Origin: Agarophyton chilense
Taxonomy: Eukaryota; Rhodophyta; Florideophyceae; Gracilariales; Gracilariaceae
Reading direction: 5' to 3'
Length of the DNA: 64,000 bases
Assembly (NCBI GenBank): GCA_030374765.1
Contig: JARGXX010000121.1
Coordinates: forward strand, 496,001-560,000
This document shows positions 47,721-55,159 of this stretch, piece by piece. The position numbers were made by a program, and so were the translations under genes. The notes below the pieces were generated by a model. It had not been told where the DNA came from, made no database searches, and saw only the letters and a list, made by a program, of their open reading frames with translations. Positions within the stretch are counted from its first letter, which is position 1. Each line of letters begins with the position of its first letter.

Positions 47721-47859
47721 TCGTACCCTGCTACGCGCCCTGCACCAGTGTCTCAGCATGTCTACTTCTCTTTTAGTTTGAGTAAGCGCGCTTACTTTTC
47801 TTTCCCCTTCATCTCTCGTCATCTCATTTAGCCGATATCCGCTCTGAGACCAATAAAGC
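47721..47859 (-). pseudogene. 3' continuation of an ORF interrupted by copia
   Basis: Deleting the copia element and one AAAGC copy joins the minus-strand frame from 54078-54414 (ending KTKPLGVL) in phase to YWSQSGYRLNEMTRDEGERK here, which stays open towards 47721 and beyond. Function is unknown. The open frame then enters the YR terminal repeat, so its true end is uncertain. Confidence 0.4.
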
Positions 47860-48067
47860 TGTTCAAAACAAGATTGCCACCTGGCACAATGCCGCTGGCG
47901 CTGCATACTAAACCTCACTCTTGCTTCACCCCGAGACACTGGGAACGGAGGAGCAAGAGGGGACACCTTGTGCCCGTAACACCTTCCTCGGTTCCACCGC
48001 GCGTCGCGCGTGCATACTAGACACCAGACCAACAGCCCTCCCGCTCTGCGTATGACTGCTTCCCATA
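47860..48067 (+). repeat. 5' LTR of copia
   Basis: It starts TGTTCAA and ends CCCATA, 208 bp. AAAGC lies immediately before. A TGGGCCCAACGG sequence a few bases after the LTR is the likely primer-binding site. Confidence 0.8.
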
Positions 48068-48094
48068 GTTATGGGCCCAACGGCAGGAGCTATT

Positions 48095-49384
48095 ATGTCT
48101 TTCAATCAGACAGACCCGCCAAAGTTTGATCTGACCAAGGATCTACAAGAATAGCGCCGCTACGTTTGTCGATGGGTGGATACTATTTCTACGGCTGCCA
48201 AGAAGGGCACCGATTGTCGTTACCAAACAATGTTTGCGACTCTAGGTCTACAGCTGTACGAGAGAGCTTTACCTAGTGCTCAGAAATCCGTGGTCGACGA
48301 AGCCCAAGAAAAAGGAATTGTTGATTACAAGCAGGAGGACCCAGTGAAAGCGGTATGCGAAATCGTTGAACTTGTCGCAGTCGAACCTCCAATTTCTGTT
48401 GTTTCTCGTTTGATTTCTTGCTTCAATCGTGTTACAAACTGCCGTCGTCGCAAGGATGAGCCTCTGGCTAGCTTCGTATCACGTTTCCGCGGCTTGGCTG
48501 CCGATCATCTCATGCAGGGTGGACTCTCATCCTCGTCTCAGGTTGGAGAAGTTCTGGCAATAACGCTACTCAACAATGCATCTTTGAGTGAGGAGACGTT
48601 GACCAATGCCAAAATACCACTAATCTCTCTCGCCGAAGCTCGCATGAGAAGTGGAAGTTGTACTGGGGATACCCAGCACCACATCAATCTTGTGAAGTTT
48701 CAGGAGTCCGTAAACAACCTCCGCGAAATGCTATCGAGGCCTCACCTTAAGATTTCGAGGCGCGATAATGAAGGATCAATGAAGCGGTCGTTGAGTTCGA
48801 GGGACATCTTACAGACACTCACTCAAAGACCAGCCCAGCTCCTTCTATCAACAAGCTCCTTCAACCCTCCCGCAGATAGCGTCTAAACCTGCATGAAGCC
48901 GTTACAGTCATAGGGAATCTTTCTTTTACCCCTTCGAGCTCTGCTGCTCACTATACAAGGGAAACCCTTGAAAACATCGTGGGTCAGAAAGTTCAAACTG
49001 CTTTATTTGCGATTTCCCAATCCAACCAGAGCGTCCTAACTCGCTTGGAAAATAAGAAATAGGGAAATTCATCAACCGTGTCTTTCAAACCGGGCAATGC
49101 GAAGAGGAAACGCACAGATGTTAAGGCTGGAAAAGGTGGAAAGTTGTCTTTCTGTTTCGATTGTGGTGATACCGAGCACATGGCCGGCAATGACTTGTGC
49201 CCAAGTCCCTCATTTCTGACAAAGAAGAGGAAGCTCGAACACCGATGCAACGATTTAGACGGTAGGTCTACAATTCCTCGTCGTGGAGGAAGACATCCCA
49301 GGAAAGATGACTCCAGAGAATGGAGCCGTGGATCTAACGCGGATTTTACGCCAGGCGCCGCCCCATCGAAGCGCAATCATGCCT
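48095..49384 (+). pseudogene. copia Gag
   Basis: The start ATG at 48095 gives MSFNQTDPPKFDL, then a TAG at codon 20 (48152). The frame continues to 48886 with the helical capsid-like core (LYERALPSAQ, VSRLISCFNRVTNCRRRKDE, FVSRFRGLAADHL). A further stretch at 48890-49060 and a frame at 49078-49384 contain a basic region and a degenerate zinc knuckle, CFDCGDTEHMAGNDLC (C-x2-C-x4-H-x5-C spacing). At least three stops are present. Confidence 0.75.
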
Positions 49385-49399
49385 AAAGTCATGGGTTGG

Positions 49400-51107
49400 G
49401 GCGTCTTCTAATGTGGTTAGTGGTACGAGAGATCTTAACCCCATCATTGACATTGGTTCCCCCCGTGGTGTAGGGGGCATCGGATCTGCCGCTGCACAAT
49501 CAATTGCAATGGGCATACAATTTCACGTTAGAGACCTCGACTGTGACCCCTTTTATCACGGTTTTGGTCCAGAATGTTCAAATCCGAAACTCGTATTTGG
49601 AATTTGGAGGTTGAAGATCAAAGGACTCAACGATGTGGAAGCAGACATTTAGTTCTACATTACGGAAGGAGACGGTCCTCTGCTACTGGGTAACGACATA
49701 GTGTCACGTTCGGACCTCATGGGTGCGGACAACACGCTCGTAGTACCCGTTTCGGTCGGAATCTCTCGAGACGACGCAATTCTGTCAACGTTCGTCCTAG
49801 GAGAGGAAAACGACCGCCGAGCACACTTATTCGTCGTTCCTGCTATAACGATGTTGTTCAAATCCTTCTTCTCTTCTCATTCTTCCTTTCTCTCTAGGAA
49901 TCCTAATCCGATCGCCGAATTCTCTGGAAATGACGGCATGGATCAGACCCATGCCCGCCGCTTCGCCACAAGGCTTCACTATCAGTCCCACCTCTCCACC
50001 AAGGACATGAAAAAGCTTTGCAGTCGAGGCGGGTTACTAAATCGAACACTTTTTGGTCAGTTCGAACAGGCCTACAATTCTTGCACTTCACGTAAAAGGT
50101 CTGGCCGGCCATTACACTCTCGAACGATATCACTCAAGAGGATACTGGGTGAGTTCAACGAGCACCTTCAGGTGGATTTCCTATTCATACGCGAGTTTGG
50201 AAACCTCCCCATTCTGCATATGAAGGATATATCAACTGGTCTCTCCGTTACTGTCCTGATGACTTCAAGGGATATGACTGATACCGCTCGCATGATTGTC
50301 GTTCATTGGTTTGATGTCTTTGGGCCTCCATCAAAATTATCGGAAGACCCAGAGTTCAATAACGACTCCATTCAGCGATTGTGTGCCGAGAATCAGATTT
50401 GATTCGAACCACGGCCTGCTCGACGCCACAACAAAATTGGAAGCCTTGAATCGAGCAACAAGACAATCCGTACATTTGTCCAAACGCTCCTTCTCGACGA
50501 ACCCCATCTGAGGGAAACTCGTCAAGTGTATCTCACGGACTTTGAGATCCTCTCCGAAGCCACATTCCTGAAGAGTGTGCTGTATGGTAACAAGTCAGTC
50601 AGCAGCTTCCAGCTTGTTCACGGCTACACTCTTTCTGTTTCTGGGTTACCCAAGCAGATGCTACAAGAGAAGCTCCTTTATTTCTACCAGGAACAAGTTT
50701 CCAGGCGTGCGGTACACACCTTACTTCGTACCAAGCCATCGTATCCTTTATCACAAAACCTTCTGGCACCAACCACTCAGGTGTATGTCTTTAAGAGAGT
50801 TGGAAAACATCGTACCTGGTACAAGGCATTCGTGGTCACGACTACTGACCATATAGTATCGGTCTCTCCGAGCGCAAATCTCCAGGGACCGAAGTATCAG
50901 ATCGCCTACGAGGATATAAGGTTAGTCCCGCGTTCATCCCTTCTACAGGAACTGGACAAACAGGAGCTTGGATATTCCTCTTTCCCGGACACTAACGCCG
51001 AAGAAGAACAGACCCCAGTCCCTGAAGAAAGGAATGAAGCCGATCGTTCTTCTCTTCCGCCCCTCCAAGATGAAGAAATCACAGGCTTCCCTGTGCAGAA
51101 CATATAA
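49400..51107 (+). pseudogene. copia protease and integrase
   Basis: The protease active site reads IIDIGSPRGVGG where D-T/S-G-S is expected, so Thr is Ile; LLGNDIVSRSD is the flap-like partner (49690). Integrase: the zinc region at 49990-50110 (HYQSHLSTKDMKKLC, NSCTSRKRSG, second Cys of the CxxC now Arg), the first Asp in HLQVDFLFI (50170), the second in SEDPEFNN (50343), and the Glu within GSLESSN after a TGA at 50400. The connection domain to 51107 ends in an acidic Pro/Glu linker. Confidence 0.78.
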
Positions 51108-51113
51108 GACCCT

Positions 51114-52963
51114 TTGAGTTTCGATCCAAACATATCGGACGAACCAAATTTGTGGTCTCTGCATCCATTCTCTTCATCCTTCTTCGCGTCGAAGGAAGAC
51201 ACAACCGTTGTGAACGCACCCTCAATTGATGTCGGGAACCCTCAACGCTTCAGAGATGTTGGCGACACCACGCTTAGGTTCCCTACAATGGGCGAAAATC
51301 TATTGTCTTCGGAGCAAAGAATTCTCGAGCAGATCAAGAAGATCATTGGAGACCAACCAGCCGCAGAAGCTAAGCTACAGTTCGCCCCGCGATGGATAAT
51401 AGACAAGACCATCGAAGCAGAGAAGAGAAACTACTCTGAAGCCGAGGCATACAAGCCGATCTCCATCAAAGGACTCCCGCAAAATGCAAATATCATATCC
51501 TCCCATCAATTCTCCGTGACGAAGTTCGATGGAGAGAATGGTAAGCTCAAGCTCAAGTGCCGTCGGGTACTACATGGAAATCGGGATTCTCAAAAGGACA
51601 ACATTCGATCTGATTCCTCTACGGCTCAATTAACCTGCATCAGACTTCTGCTTTCCCTCGCAACTTTACTACACCTCACCCTTAGAAGCATTGACATCTC
51701 TAGAGCGTATCTGAAATCAGGCGACCTCAAACGAGATATATAAATGCGGCCTCCAAAGGGATGGACACACTTTTCGTAGACAAAGTATGGAAGCTACTCA
51801 AGCCAGCATATGGCCTAGTAGAGTCCGGCCGTCTCTGGCAGCTATGCATCGAGGAATGGTTGTGCGACTACGGATTCCCTACTGTCCCTGGTATGCCACA
51901 GATGTTCATATTGTCGGACGACCATGGATGTATATCTCTACTCCTCGCCAAATTGGTGGACGATCTTCTCCTTTCCGGATCAAAGAGTGAGATGAACAAA
52001 TTCTCCAAGGCTCTCTCAGCTCGATTCAAGGTTAGCAGAGCAATCTTTAAGAACGAGATTATCTTCAGCCGCCTTTGGATTCGGCAATATGAAGACTTTT
52101 CGATCTAGATCTCCATGGCAGAGTTTATGGAAAAGCTCGCCCCCATTTCGATCTTGAGGGATAGGAGGAAGCAGTACGAGGATCTATGCACCCAACAAGA
52201 AGTCCGAGAAATCCAGTCTCTTGCTGGAAAACTCAACTTCCTTGGCCATGGTGTGCTGCGTCAAGCCGCGTATGCTGCCAGCTTTATGCAGCAGCTGGTC
52301 CCAGAGATGCGCGTTAGGCATCTTCTGCAGGCAAACCAGATCCTCAACCTCGTCTTTAAGCTACGTCCGGTCGTGAAGTACATGGCTCCGAGATCTGCGA
52401 TGGTATCGGATCACATGAAAGCTTGCCACATAGTGACGTTCTCTGACGCCAGCACTGGAAAATTATCCTACGGTCAAACTGTCTACATCAGTGGCATTGC
52501 CTTCTCCAAAGGTGAGAACATTACCTACCACATCGTCGACTGGCATAGCGCGAAGCAAGGACGCATATCCTTTAGTTCAAAAGGTGCTGAAATTCTTGCG
52601 GCAGCAGAATCTGCAGACAGATCCATACTACTTAGGGAATGAATGGAAGTTCTTGCATCGGATTTCGGTTCGCTCGTCCTTTACGTCGACTCATTTGGTT
52701 TGTACTCAACGATCACTACCCTTCACGAATGCCGAGACTACCGATTGTTCCCCATCGTATCGCGCCTCCGTGACTCTTTCGAAGCTGGAGACATATCCTC
52801 CATGCGTTGGATAGCAGGAAGTCTCAACTTAGCCGACGCGTTAACAAAGGGCAAGCATCATTCATTTACTCAATTGAACCAAGCTATGGTTCAAGGAATA
52901 CTCAGCAAAGGTATCATATCTACTATCGCCTACCATCTTGGGGCATGGAACCCTAAAGTTTAG
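51114..52963 (+). pseudogene. copia reverse transcriptase and RNase H
   Basis: RT shows FDGENGKLKLKCRRVLHGN, SIDISRAYLKSGDLKRDI (the first catalytic Asp is in this DIS motif), then a TAA, MRPPKGW, VWKLLKPAYGLVESGRLW, and the catalytic pair in LAKLVDDLLLSGS (x-V-D-D). RNase H shows TFSDAST, SAKQGRISFSSKGAEILA and, after a TGA at 52640, LVLYVDSFGLYSTI, with the ending NLADALTKG. Stops at 51741, about 52108 and 52640 kill it. Confidence 0.85.
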
Positions 52964-53154
52964 GATCTAATATGGCAAAGATTTCAAACCCTGTTTAAAG
53001 AACCTTCTCGGTGACGACCTACGCCACCATATGCCACCCTACTTCTCGTTGCATCACCTTCGACTGCCTGACTGTACTTGATTTGGAAAGTGTGCATATC
53101 TATGCGGCACACGACGCTCGTTCCATGCTCCAAAGCATAGATTTGGTTCTTGAT

Positions 53155-53569
53155 CTCACCCCGACCTCCTCGTGACAACCACACCTTCTCTATCATCCAA
53201 GAGTTGTACTCAATAGCTATATAGGGATCTTCGTCATCATTCAAGGCCTCTGAAAGTCCCAATCGAAATAGCATCAACTCCCCAAGCTAAGTTCGTCGAA
53301 ATTCTGAATGAAATGCGTTATCTTCCGCCCAAGCAAGATAATGGCTTCGTTTTCGCTAATTCGCACCAAATTGTTGCTACTTTCGAATGTGATTGCGTAG
53401 ATTTCCGCACGCCACGCTGCGGTTTGCAACAAAAAAGTCTCAAGATATTCTTGCCTAAATACTGGTCAAGATAAATTTCGCTTGTAATTCTCGCCGCTTT
53501 GCCCGCAAGTTGGCACTTTGGGGATTTTCCGACGACAGATTTGCGAGCCGTCTGCGTAGTACGAGCCAT
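53155..53569 (-). pseudogene. Histone H3-like pseudogene inside copia
   Basis: The N-terminus reads MARTTQTARKSVVGKSPKCQ, then LAGKAAR: the H3 tail with Lys4 to Thr, Gly12 to Val, Arg17-Lys18 to Lys-Cys and Thr22 to Gly. Downstream, in shifted frames with stops, further H3-like pieces appear in the right order: KPQR, VACGNLRNHIRK (compare VALREIRRYQKS), AEDNAFHSEFRR (AQDFKTDLRFQS), NDDEDPYIAIEYN (GLFEDTNLCAIHA) and WMIEKVWLSRGGRGE (TIMPKDIQLARRIRGE). The span is almost exactly the 136-codon H3 length. A CCAAT box in the gene's orientation is expected; instead CCAAT lies on the plus strand at about 53701 and a TGACGTC near 53668. It is antisense to copia. Confidence 0.6.
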
Positions 53570-53869
53570 CGAAAAGATCACCTGAGCAGAAGTCGTCCAC
53601 GCTGTCCGAAGAGAAGTGACACGTCAACTTCCGCGTCAAAGGTTTTCCCCAGAGTGATGGGAGCAGTGACGTCGCGAATATGGCGTAGTGGCACATGCGT
53701 GGCCAATCGAGAAGAAAGAGAGAGGTGGTCGCAAATCGCATAAGACCCGCACAGCCCGTGAGGAAGACGCGCGAAAGAAATATCGCGTTTAGGGTCAGAA
53801 AGCGAGTTGCCGGGCATTCGACCGCACTCCAAAAAATCTAATTTTATAGTATCGCGCTATGGCGGAGAC

Positions 53870-54077
53870 TGTGCAACACACGATTTCCACCTGGCACAAT
53901 GCCGCCGGCGCTGCATACTAAATCTCACTCTTGCTCCACCCCGCGACACTGGGGACGGAGAAGCAAGAGGGGACACCTTATGCCCGTTCCACCTTCCTCG
54001 GTTCCACCGCGCGTCGCGCGTGCATACTAGACACCAGACCAACAGCCCTCCCGCTCTGCGTACGACTGTTTCCCATA
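53870..54077 (+). repeat. 3' LTR of copia
   Basis: TGTGCAA to CCCATA, 208 bp, followed by AAAGC. A short purine stretch GGCGGAGA precedes it as the likely polypurine tract. Confidence 0.8.
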
Positions 54078-54414
54078 AAAGCACCCCGAGAGGTTTTGTC
54101 TTCATACGCGAAACAGCCTCCGAGATATCGACTTCATGGTCTGTATGACTTGGAACTCTACCAACGTTCAATGCAATCCAATCAGTGGTCTCAAGGTAGT
54201 CTTCCAACTGTATATCTGCGCTGACTAAACGATTAGGAAAGCAGAACTCGCAAGCGTTGCAATCCGCCACAATCACTTCACTACCAGCTACAGTGCGCGA
54301 AATCCAATTAAAGCCACCCCCCTTTTTGTTGATGCACTCTATTTCTCTCATGTTCCTCTCAACCTTCTCTCTAGTAACGCTTAAAAAGAACAAATGAAAC
54401 ACTTCTGACGCCAT
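54078..54414 (-). pseudogene. Unknown ORF truncated by the copia insertion
   Basis: The ATG at 54414 opens MASEVFHLFFLSVTREKV, and 112 codons follow to the copia edge, including a CNACEFCF cluster, LETTDWIALNVGR and HTDHEVDISEAVS. It then reads into LTR sequence. Its original continuation is at 47859 and leftwards, joined in phase after removal of the element. No family is recognised; the Cys and His content might bind metal. Confidence 0.4.
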
Positions 54415-54598: not shown

Positions 54599-55159
54599 AT
54601 GTGCCGTGGAAAATTTTTAACGGATGAAAAAAAGGTATGATACTTGCAGCTTCATTTCATTGCTGTTCTCAAAGAGAAATTGCTCAAAACATTGGACGCT
54701 CTCGCATTGTTGTCCAAAACTCTCTCAAAGATCCCGAAAACTACAAAAAACGGTATAAAGGCTCCAACAACAACAAAATGAGTTTGAAGGCTAAAAGAGC
54801 TCTTCTTTGCTCGGCATCAAACTCATCTAGCTCCGAGAGAGAACTCCGTAAAGATCTTCCTCTCTCGGTTTCTGTCAGGCCAATACAACAAGTGTTACAT
54901 AGTGATCCAAATTTAATACATAAGAAGATGAAGAAAGTACTAATGATGACGAAAATACATAAAAAGAAAATGTTTTTTTTGGCTAGAGAGAAGATGACTT
55001 TTTCTATGACGAAATGAAATAAAACCATTTTTTCTGATGAGAATAAATTTAACGTAGATGGACCAGAAGCATTTGTGCATTATTGGCATGATAAAAGGAA
55101 GAAAAAGATTAATTTTTCTAAGCAACAGAGTTGAGAAGAATCTGTGATGCGTTGGGGTG
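54599..55159 (+). pseudogene. Tc1/mariner transposase, N-terminal part (split by Gypsy-3)
   Basis: It starts MCRGKFLTDEKK, then loses one A in an A-run near 54632, so the frame shifts to ILAASFHCCSQREIAQNIGRS (helix-turn-helix, continued as the 54637-55017 frame: LKAKRALLC, RELRKDLPLSVSVR, HKKMKKV). A further shift gives [19 protein letters not shown], with the first catalytic Asp (FSDE). A TGA precedes SVMRWG at the Gypsy-3 junction. It was already dead before or after insertion. Confidence 0.8.

Follow-up and report, generated by a model that had tools for sequence, protein, structure and literature searches.

A histone H3-like tail on a conserved antisense-encoded protein of copia retrotransposons in the red alga Agarophyton chilense

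What is a stretch of histone H3 doing on the antisense strand of a retrotransposon, and what is it attached to? The question arises in a 64,000-nucleotide stretch of the genome of Agarophyton chilense, which was analysed as a whole and is called the window here. Nine matches to light-harvesting proteins, one of them close to the red-algal entry 7y5e, also indicate a red-algal host. The original prediction had read the feature as a relic of an H3 gene, namely a tail followed by decayed pieces matching the rest of the histone. This observation was half right and understated: the H3 tail sits on a conserved protein encoded in antisense by a family of elements.

The element in the window is a copia retrotransposon that spans positions 47860–54077, including its 208-bp LTRs. 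Comparison of the LTRs placed the 5′ LTR at 47860–48067 and the 3′ LTR at 53870–54077 (both plus strand), and the two are 93% identical. The target-site duplication AAAGC was read from the sequence at 47855–47859 on the left and at 54078–54082 on the right; these coordinates bear out the earlier statement that the LTRs and the duplication lie outside the H3-like segment. The sense frames are split into several ORFs. Pfam detected a weak match to integrase (rve, E = 0.008) in a sense ORF piece at 49653–50399 and a copia-type reverse transcriptase piece (RVT_2, E = 7e-12) at 51704–52105, both on the plus strand; integrase upstream of RVT_2 is the copia order. The end of the sense pol frame at 52643–52960 (plus strand; stop at 52963) was taken from the ORF list. 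This piece has no Pfam match and was named RNase H by its position; in 23 of 30 places fetched, the pol end stands tail-to-tail with the antisense gene. Just outside the element, at 54628–55014 on the plus strand, lies a Tc3-like transposase N-terminus (HTH_Tnp_Tc3_2_like, E = 4e-4, short of Pfam's cut-off).

In the region from the end of pol to the 3′ LTR, translation of the minus strand from 53569 gives MARTTQTARKSVVGKSPKCQLAGKAAR. An H3 tail is indeed present at this place: residues 1–27 of the antisense protein, encoded at 53569–53489, were recognised as H3 by translation, PDB search and comparison with shuffled sequences, with Thr instead of Lys4 in this copy. In five natural copies, 21–22 of the 27 residues are identical to those of host H3. 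The score of the tail lay far above that of shuffled sequences in all copies tested (z 16–18 in four of five, 9.9 in the fifth). Residues 1–30 of an intact natural copy (L042) matched histone H3 in the PDB with an E-value of about 1e-5 (phmmer), and a profile search (hmmsearch) of the PDB returned the same tail match. At the DNA level the likeness is much looser; the third codon positions of the residues shared with host H3 agree in just 4–10 of 20–21 cases in the five copies. A search of the genome with the host H3 tail (E ≤ 10) gave 36 matches, which comprise the three H3 genes, one pseudogene fragment and 32 others, and all 32 fall at places of the antisense copia gene family.

The H3 portion of the antisense protein is limited to residues 1–26. 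Antisense residues 28–136 aligned with the corresponding residues of H3 no better than expected by chance (z −1.1 to +1.2 in the five natural copies), and a 40-residue fragment from the window gave z = 0.3 against H3 beyond the tail. No H3 match fell outside residues 1–32 among the best 60 of 129 phmmer matches or the best 60 of 134 hmmsearch matches, and Pfam returned no histone match for the three antisense copies searched. By these results the protein lacks the histone-fold core. The original prediction had staked its reading on a significant H3 match past codon 25; there is none, so the relic part of that prediction is refuted. The window segment is not an H3 relic, because the sequence behind the tail has no H3 resemblance.

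A whole H3 gene, captured by the element or inserted into it and since decayed, would explain the perfect Met-Ala start and the 27-residue match. A relic of this kind exists elsewhere in the genome and served as a control: L093 (G000 C113:929000-929450) is a decayed H3 pseudogene fragment, MGRTKQTARKTTGGRA, that reads past residue 27, in another frame, into the H3 stretch that follows. Since H3 is still visible there, decay alone need not erase the H3 core. In the antisense family, by contrast, H3 similarity stops at residues 27–32 (five copies; best 60 rows of the PDB searches), and the sequence that follows is conserved in frame in 22 copies. This common non-H3 domain already refutes the explanation, and we find it hardly credible.

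What follows the tail in the window is the remainder of a family protein. Alignment to that protein assigned residues 1–55 to 53405–53569, residues 57–97, after a frame change, to 53280–53402, and residues 87–191, after a second frame change and with one stop, to 52993–53313, all on the minus strand. The pieces that had been taken for the rest of H3 are the second and third of these, and belong to a non-histone protein. With two frame changes, a stop and the codons past about 185–191 missing, the window feature is a dead copy of the antisense family gene. Upstream of the antisense ATG, a leader (53570–53869, minus strand; defined from the sequence and the alignment of copies) reaches to the 3′ LTR. 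Its 120 bases adjoining the ATG are conserved among copies, with a pairwise identity of 0.61–0.88 per 15-nt bin, and a TATA-like TATAAAA stands at 53848–53842, about 275 nt upstream of the ATG. From these sequence features, the leader and its TATA-like box may act as a promoter. It was not brought along from a histone gene: the 300 nt upstream of the gene in two copies share words of at most 14 nt with eight histone loci, and capture together with an H3 promoter was rejected.

The gene recurs throughout the genome. The window segment matches genomic DNA at about 40 places (41 matches), and the 272-residue protein of L042 gave 107 matches in 65 clusters across the 80-Mb genome. After subtraction of the three host H3 genes and four places of a Ty3/Gypsy type, 58 copia-type places remain, the window included. 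The same passenger, as the earlier reading had proposed to look for, is thus found family-wide. We fetched 30 places with their flanks, five of which are near-identical to each other. The end of pol faces the antisense gene tail-to-tail on the other strand in 23 of the 30, and in 23 of the 30 a 3′ LTR lies just upstream of the gene in the expected orientation. In its position between pol and the 3′ LTR on the opposite strand, its many copies and its coding constraint, the gene agrees with the antisense additional ORFs of LTR retrotransposons. The constant position also settles part of the earlier alternative between pick-up and later insertion: acquisition by the element stands, and late insertion into one copy is rejected. 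A search for a target duplication around the segment alone, which late insertion could have left, found no direct repeat of at least 10 bases in 53000–53900.

Among the fetched copia copies, the longest stop-free ORF encodes 377 residues from Met (L050). Other copies extend about 70 residues further to a basic end, such as KRTRRGKKRRHQEGSSNR in L060, whose composition suggests a nuclear signal. The protein consists of the N-terminal H3 tail, a non-histone domain, and a C-terminal part in which a Cys, a His and an Asp are conserved and which closes with the basic end. We have high confidence in this anatomy, in which an H3 tail is joined to a conserved non-histone protein encoded in antisense. 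Five nearly identical copies (G000 C82:15344, C82:58880, C14:114898, C81:26106 and C106:2006) represent one old broken element; since several are on short contigs, they probably arose by segmental duplication rather than transposition. Two relatives are deeper. The tail of L085 (G000 C128:816300-817100) reads MGRTKQTARKSTGRTALRRQIARKAAR, and past it the likeness to the family protein is gradually lost. L082 retains a recognisable tail at 23% identity over the whole aligned stretch. The L085 tail is followed by an ORF that by eye resembles a Tc1/mariner transposase N-terminus, perhaps an insertion. No relatives were found among plasmid records or, with the Gypsy-type query, among viral contigs.

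A more distant homologue belongs to another class of element. L079 (C92:376215-377486; L079:916-2187:-) is a 424-residue ORF about 23% identical to the copia protein over its whole length, and lies in antisense behind the integrase of its element. That element matches aspartic protease, RVT_1, RT RNase H and H2C2 integrase, and because of these domain matches we assign it to Ty3/Gypsy; a search of the fetched flanks of the Gypsy-type gene found no LTR pair. The N-terminus of L079, MAVTRQRVRAQRTRRVPRS, is Arg-rich and has lost Lys4 and Lys9. Compared with the H3 tail in register, its score was reached by 18 of 20,000 shuffled sequences and its identities by 37; as it beats nearly all shuffles, it may be a worn H3 tail. 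The Gypsy family with the antisense gene comprises L079, L080, L081 and G000 C3:278641, and two of these four near-complete copies are free of stops. Three near-identical Gypsy-type copies have dN/dS values of 1.1–1.4, based on few changes. Five further Gypsy-type copies (G000 C96:53278-53964, C88:100307, C77:644552, C100:127847 and C71:2334910) are 95–98% identical and have one in-frame internal deletion in common (codons 1–129 and 323–424; open frame of 276), which removes the Cys and spares the His and Asp.

The conserved residues of the C-terminal part hold across both element types. In alignment A1, which consists of 33 chosen stop-free copia and Gypsy rows, the Cys is found in the same column in 16 of 16 rows reaching it, the His in 11 of 13 and the Asp in 8 of 8; in the copia DNA alignment the counts are 18 of 22 for Cys and 16 of 20 for His. 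The three stand in what we take to be the order of a papain-like thiol peptidase. Pfam and NCBIfam searches with the domain yielded two Pfam hits, each at E = 0.17, and nothing else. The PDB gave no match of weight outside the tail, and no known peptidase family profile was matched in Pfam, NCBIfam or the PDB (best 60 of 134 in the PDB profile search). AlphaFold models of the protein had pLDDT values of 39 and 36 and were unusable. With no profile match and no usable fold model, the peptidase reading is one of motif only. The C-terminal His/Asp segment (about residues 318–412 of L079) also occurs at roughly two dozen further places outside the copia list, at roughly 30–45% identity (for example G000 C11:183236, C100:27432, C109:186919, C131:435836 and C16:216170). 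Given this number of places, it seems to be a widespread module in this genome.

Is the antisense frame under selection as a protein? Codon alignments comprised the window copy and 25 fetched ones (26 in all); of the 30 fetched places, L063, L065, L066 and L067 were dropped as near-identical to L064, and L075 as rearranged. The middle region was analysed without L058, L069, L077 and L078, the C-terminal region without these four, L049 and the window, and the tail without L059 as well as L061, L077 and L078. Frame comparisons use one codon fewer per region than the other values of the same analysis. Across domain codons 28–189, dN/dS was 0.36 in frame, compared with 1.08 and 0.89 in the shifted frames (22 copies), and across codons 237–376 it was 0.43 in frame, compared with 0.79 and 1.33 (20 copies). 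Binned by increasing divergence, dN/dS of codons 28–190 was 0.64, 0.39, 0.30 and 0.39. Older pairs are more constrained than young ones, as expected if the gene was selected while the elements were active and decayed after insertion.

For the tail, dN/dS was 0.48 with a codon bootstrap range of 0.31–0.71 (pairs of 24 copies, two deep relatives included). By frame, the tail alone gave 0.58 in frame and 1.26 and 0.76 shifted, a weak frame control (22 copies). In recent pairs, the tail appears unconstrained (dN/dS 1.07 in the ten nearest disjoint pairs and 1.35 in 19 pairs below 0.12 divergence), as post-insertion decay would predict, but a neutral tail also. Compared with 23 family tails, L085 and L082 have pS values of 0.61 and 0.94 and pN values of 0.26 and 0.39, respectively. 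Between 25 tails and the host H3 genes, pS was 0.73–0.83 and pN 0.24, so that synonymous sites approach saturation and the residues have been retained; some of this saturation may be host-side, and alone it is no proof of constraint in the element. Overall, the antisense frame shows clear selection in the domain and moderate selection in the tail.

These patterns bear on two explanations that do without a functional protein. If the antisense RNA were what matters, through double-stranded RNA or copy-number control, the ORF would be incidental, and antisense transcripts of LTR elements may indeed be regulatory (PMC7264820). The codon-position pattern, a dN/dS far under 1 in just one frame, and the full-length protein identity of about 23% with the relative in Ty3/Gypsy make this improbable. 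Alternatively, a neutral host fragment may have been captured once and carried along by hitchhiking. Most copies are broken and recent pairs show little tail constraint, as such a history would predict, whereas the greater constraint in older comparisons (codons 28–190) and the retention of the gene in two retroelement superfamilies run against it; we judge this explanation very improbable.

Which features of H3 has the tail kept? Residues were counted in H3 numbering over 25 antisense tails, leaving out L061, L077 and L078. Lys4 is present in 23 of the 25, the exceptions being Thr in the window copy and Glu in one other. The idea that a Lys4-less tail was a notable or working form is rejected on this count. 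L050 (G000 C92:2187794-2188606), the copy with the longest stop-free frame, has Glu at this position. Lys9 is found in 22 of the 24 tails with a codon there, Lys14 in 17 of 25 and Lys23 in 21 of 25, while position 18 is Arg in 19 of 25 and Lys in none. Lys27 is absent from the 23 aligned rows with a tail as well as from L085 and L082. Among the other residues, Ala1 (22 of 25), Thr3 (20), Gln5 (22), Thr6 (21), Ser10 (20), Gln19 (21) and Leu20 (20) are largely kept, and Thr11 occurs in one tail. A short H3-identical stretch on a non-histone protein of a parasite, the hallmark of a histone mimic, is thus present here.

The basic N-terminus of a genuine antisense protein could also serve only in DNA or RNA binding or nuclear targeting, its H3 likeness being ancestry without mimicry. 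The Arg-rich N-terminus of the Gypsy relative, which lacks Lys4 and Lys9, the loss of Lys18 and Lys27 from the copia tails and the lack of tail constraint in recent pairs all fit this explanation. It does not predict that uncharged H3 residues (A1, T3, Q5, T6, Q19, L20) would be kept too, beyond charge alone, while third codon positions differ largely from those of host H3. On balance, we regard it as unlikely.

We consider it probable that the family carries an accessory gene, antisense between pol and the 3′ LTR, whose H3-tail protein acts on host chromatin factors. The gene would be transcribed in antisense from near the 3′ LTR. Removal of the initiator Met would leave a protein presenting Ala-Arg-Thr-Lys at a free N-terminus, as H3 does. 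The protein would be nuclear, and its tail would engage host proteins that read or modify H3. The tail might then be a decoy that titrates silencing factors of the element, or an adaptor through which the Cys-His-Asp part, papain-like by motif, or the integration complex would reach chromatin. That mimicry of H3 is the function of the protein we put forward tentatively, as a possibility at somewhat less than even odds. The fullest version stands at similar odds: in both copia and Ty3/Gypsy elements of one alga, the gene may encode a nuclear histone mimic that could bear marks at Lys4 and Lys9, without Lys27, and that titrates or hijacks the readers and writers of silencing, with a thiol-peptidase-like effector.

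A literature search, which did not extend to many subscription papers or to any bioRxiv preprints, found no retroelement protein starting with an H3 tail. Several known systems resemble parts of the algal one. An antisense gene driven from the 3′ LTR has a counterpart in HTLV-1 HBZ. HBZ is the name of the HTLV antisense gene; HTLV-1 is an animal retrovirus, and the HBZ protein is unrelated to the algal one. The antisense promoter of HTLV is located in the 3′ LTR, according to the passage on this virus in PMC7264820. The closest parallel in position and strand is provided by the antisense additional ORFs that plant elements carry between pol and the 3′ LTR, such as Grande gene23, RIRE2, Retand ORF4/TRP28 and PvRetro13. 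In some families all copies or most of them have such an ORF, and some products are nuclear, with no known function (PMC7264820; PMC11963269). They are described there from land plants, whereas the algal gene is common to copia and Ty3/Gypsy elements of one alga, and the word 'histone' does not occur in the main text of either source (PMC7264820; PMC11963269). An extra ORF common to diverse retroelement types, as here, is also known as ORF3 of bdelloid rotifers, which the relevant part of its source describes neither as antisense nor as histone-like (PMC5408684).

Antisense accessory genes of LTR retrotransposons have been described without a known function, and here one of them has a recognisable, testable H3 module. 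If it works as a mimic, this module would offer a direct assay of the role of the antisense gene, in which its tail is tried for binding against H3 readers and writers. A possible functional analogue is influenza NS1, whose C-terminal histone mimic has CHD1 and MORC3 among the H3 readers that it binds (PMC10612106). Like the algal protein, NS1 is a parasite protein that copies a short part of the H3 tail, around Lys4. The NS1 copy has few residues and is C-terminal, whereas the algal tail has 26 residues and is N-terminal like that of H3, its binding being so far a prediction. Histone-binding factors normally require a free N-terminal amine, which the NS1 mimic lacks in the account given there (PMC10612106). 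If the proposed reading is true, a transposable element would be attacking chromatin silencing through imitation of the histone itself, as has been described for the influenza protein.
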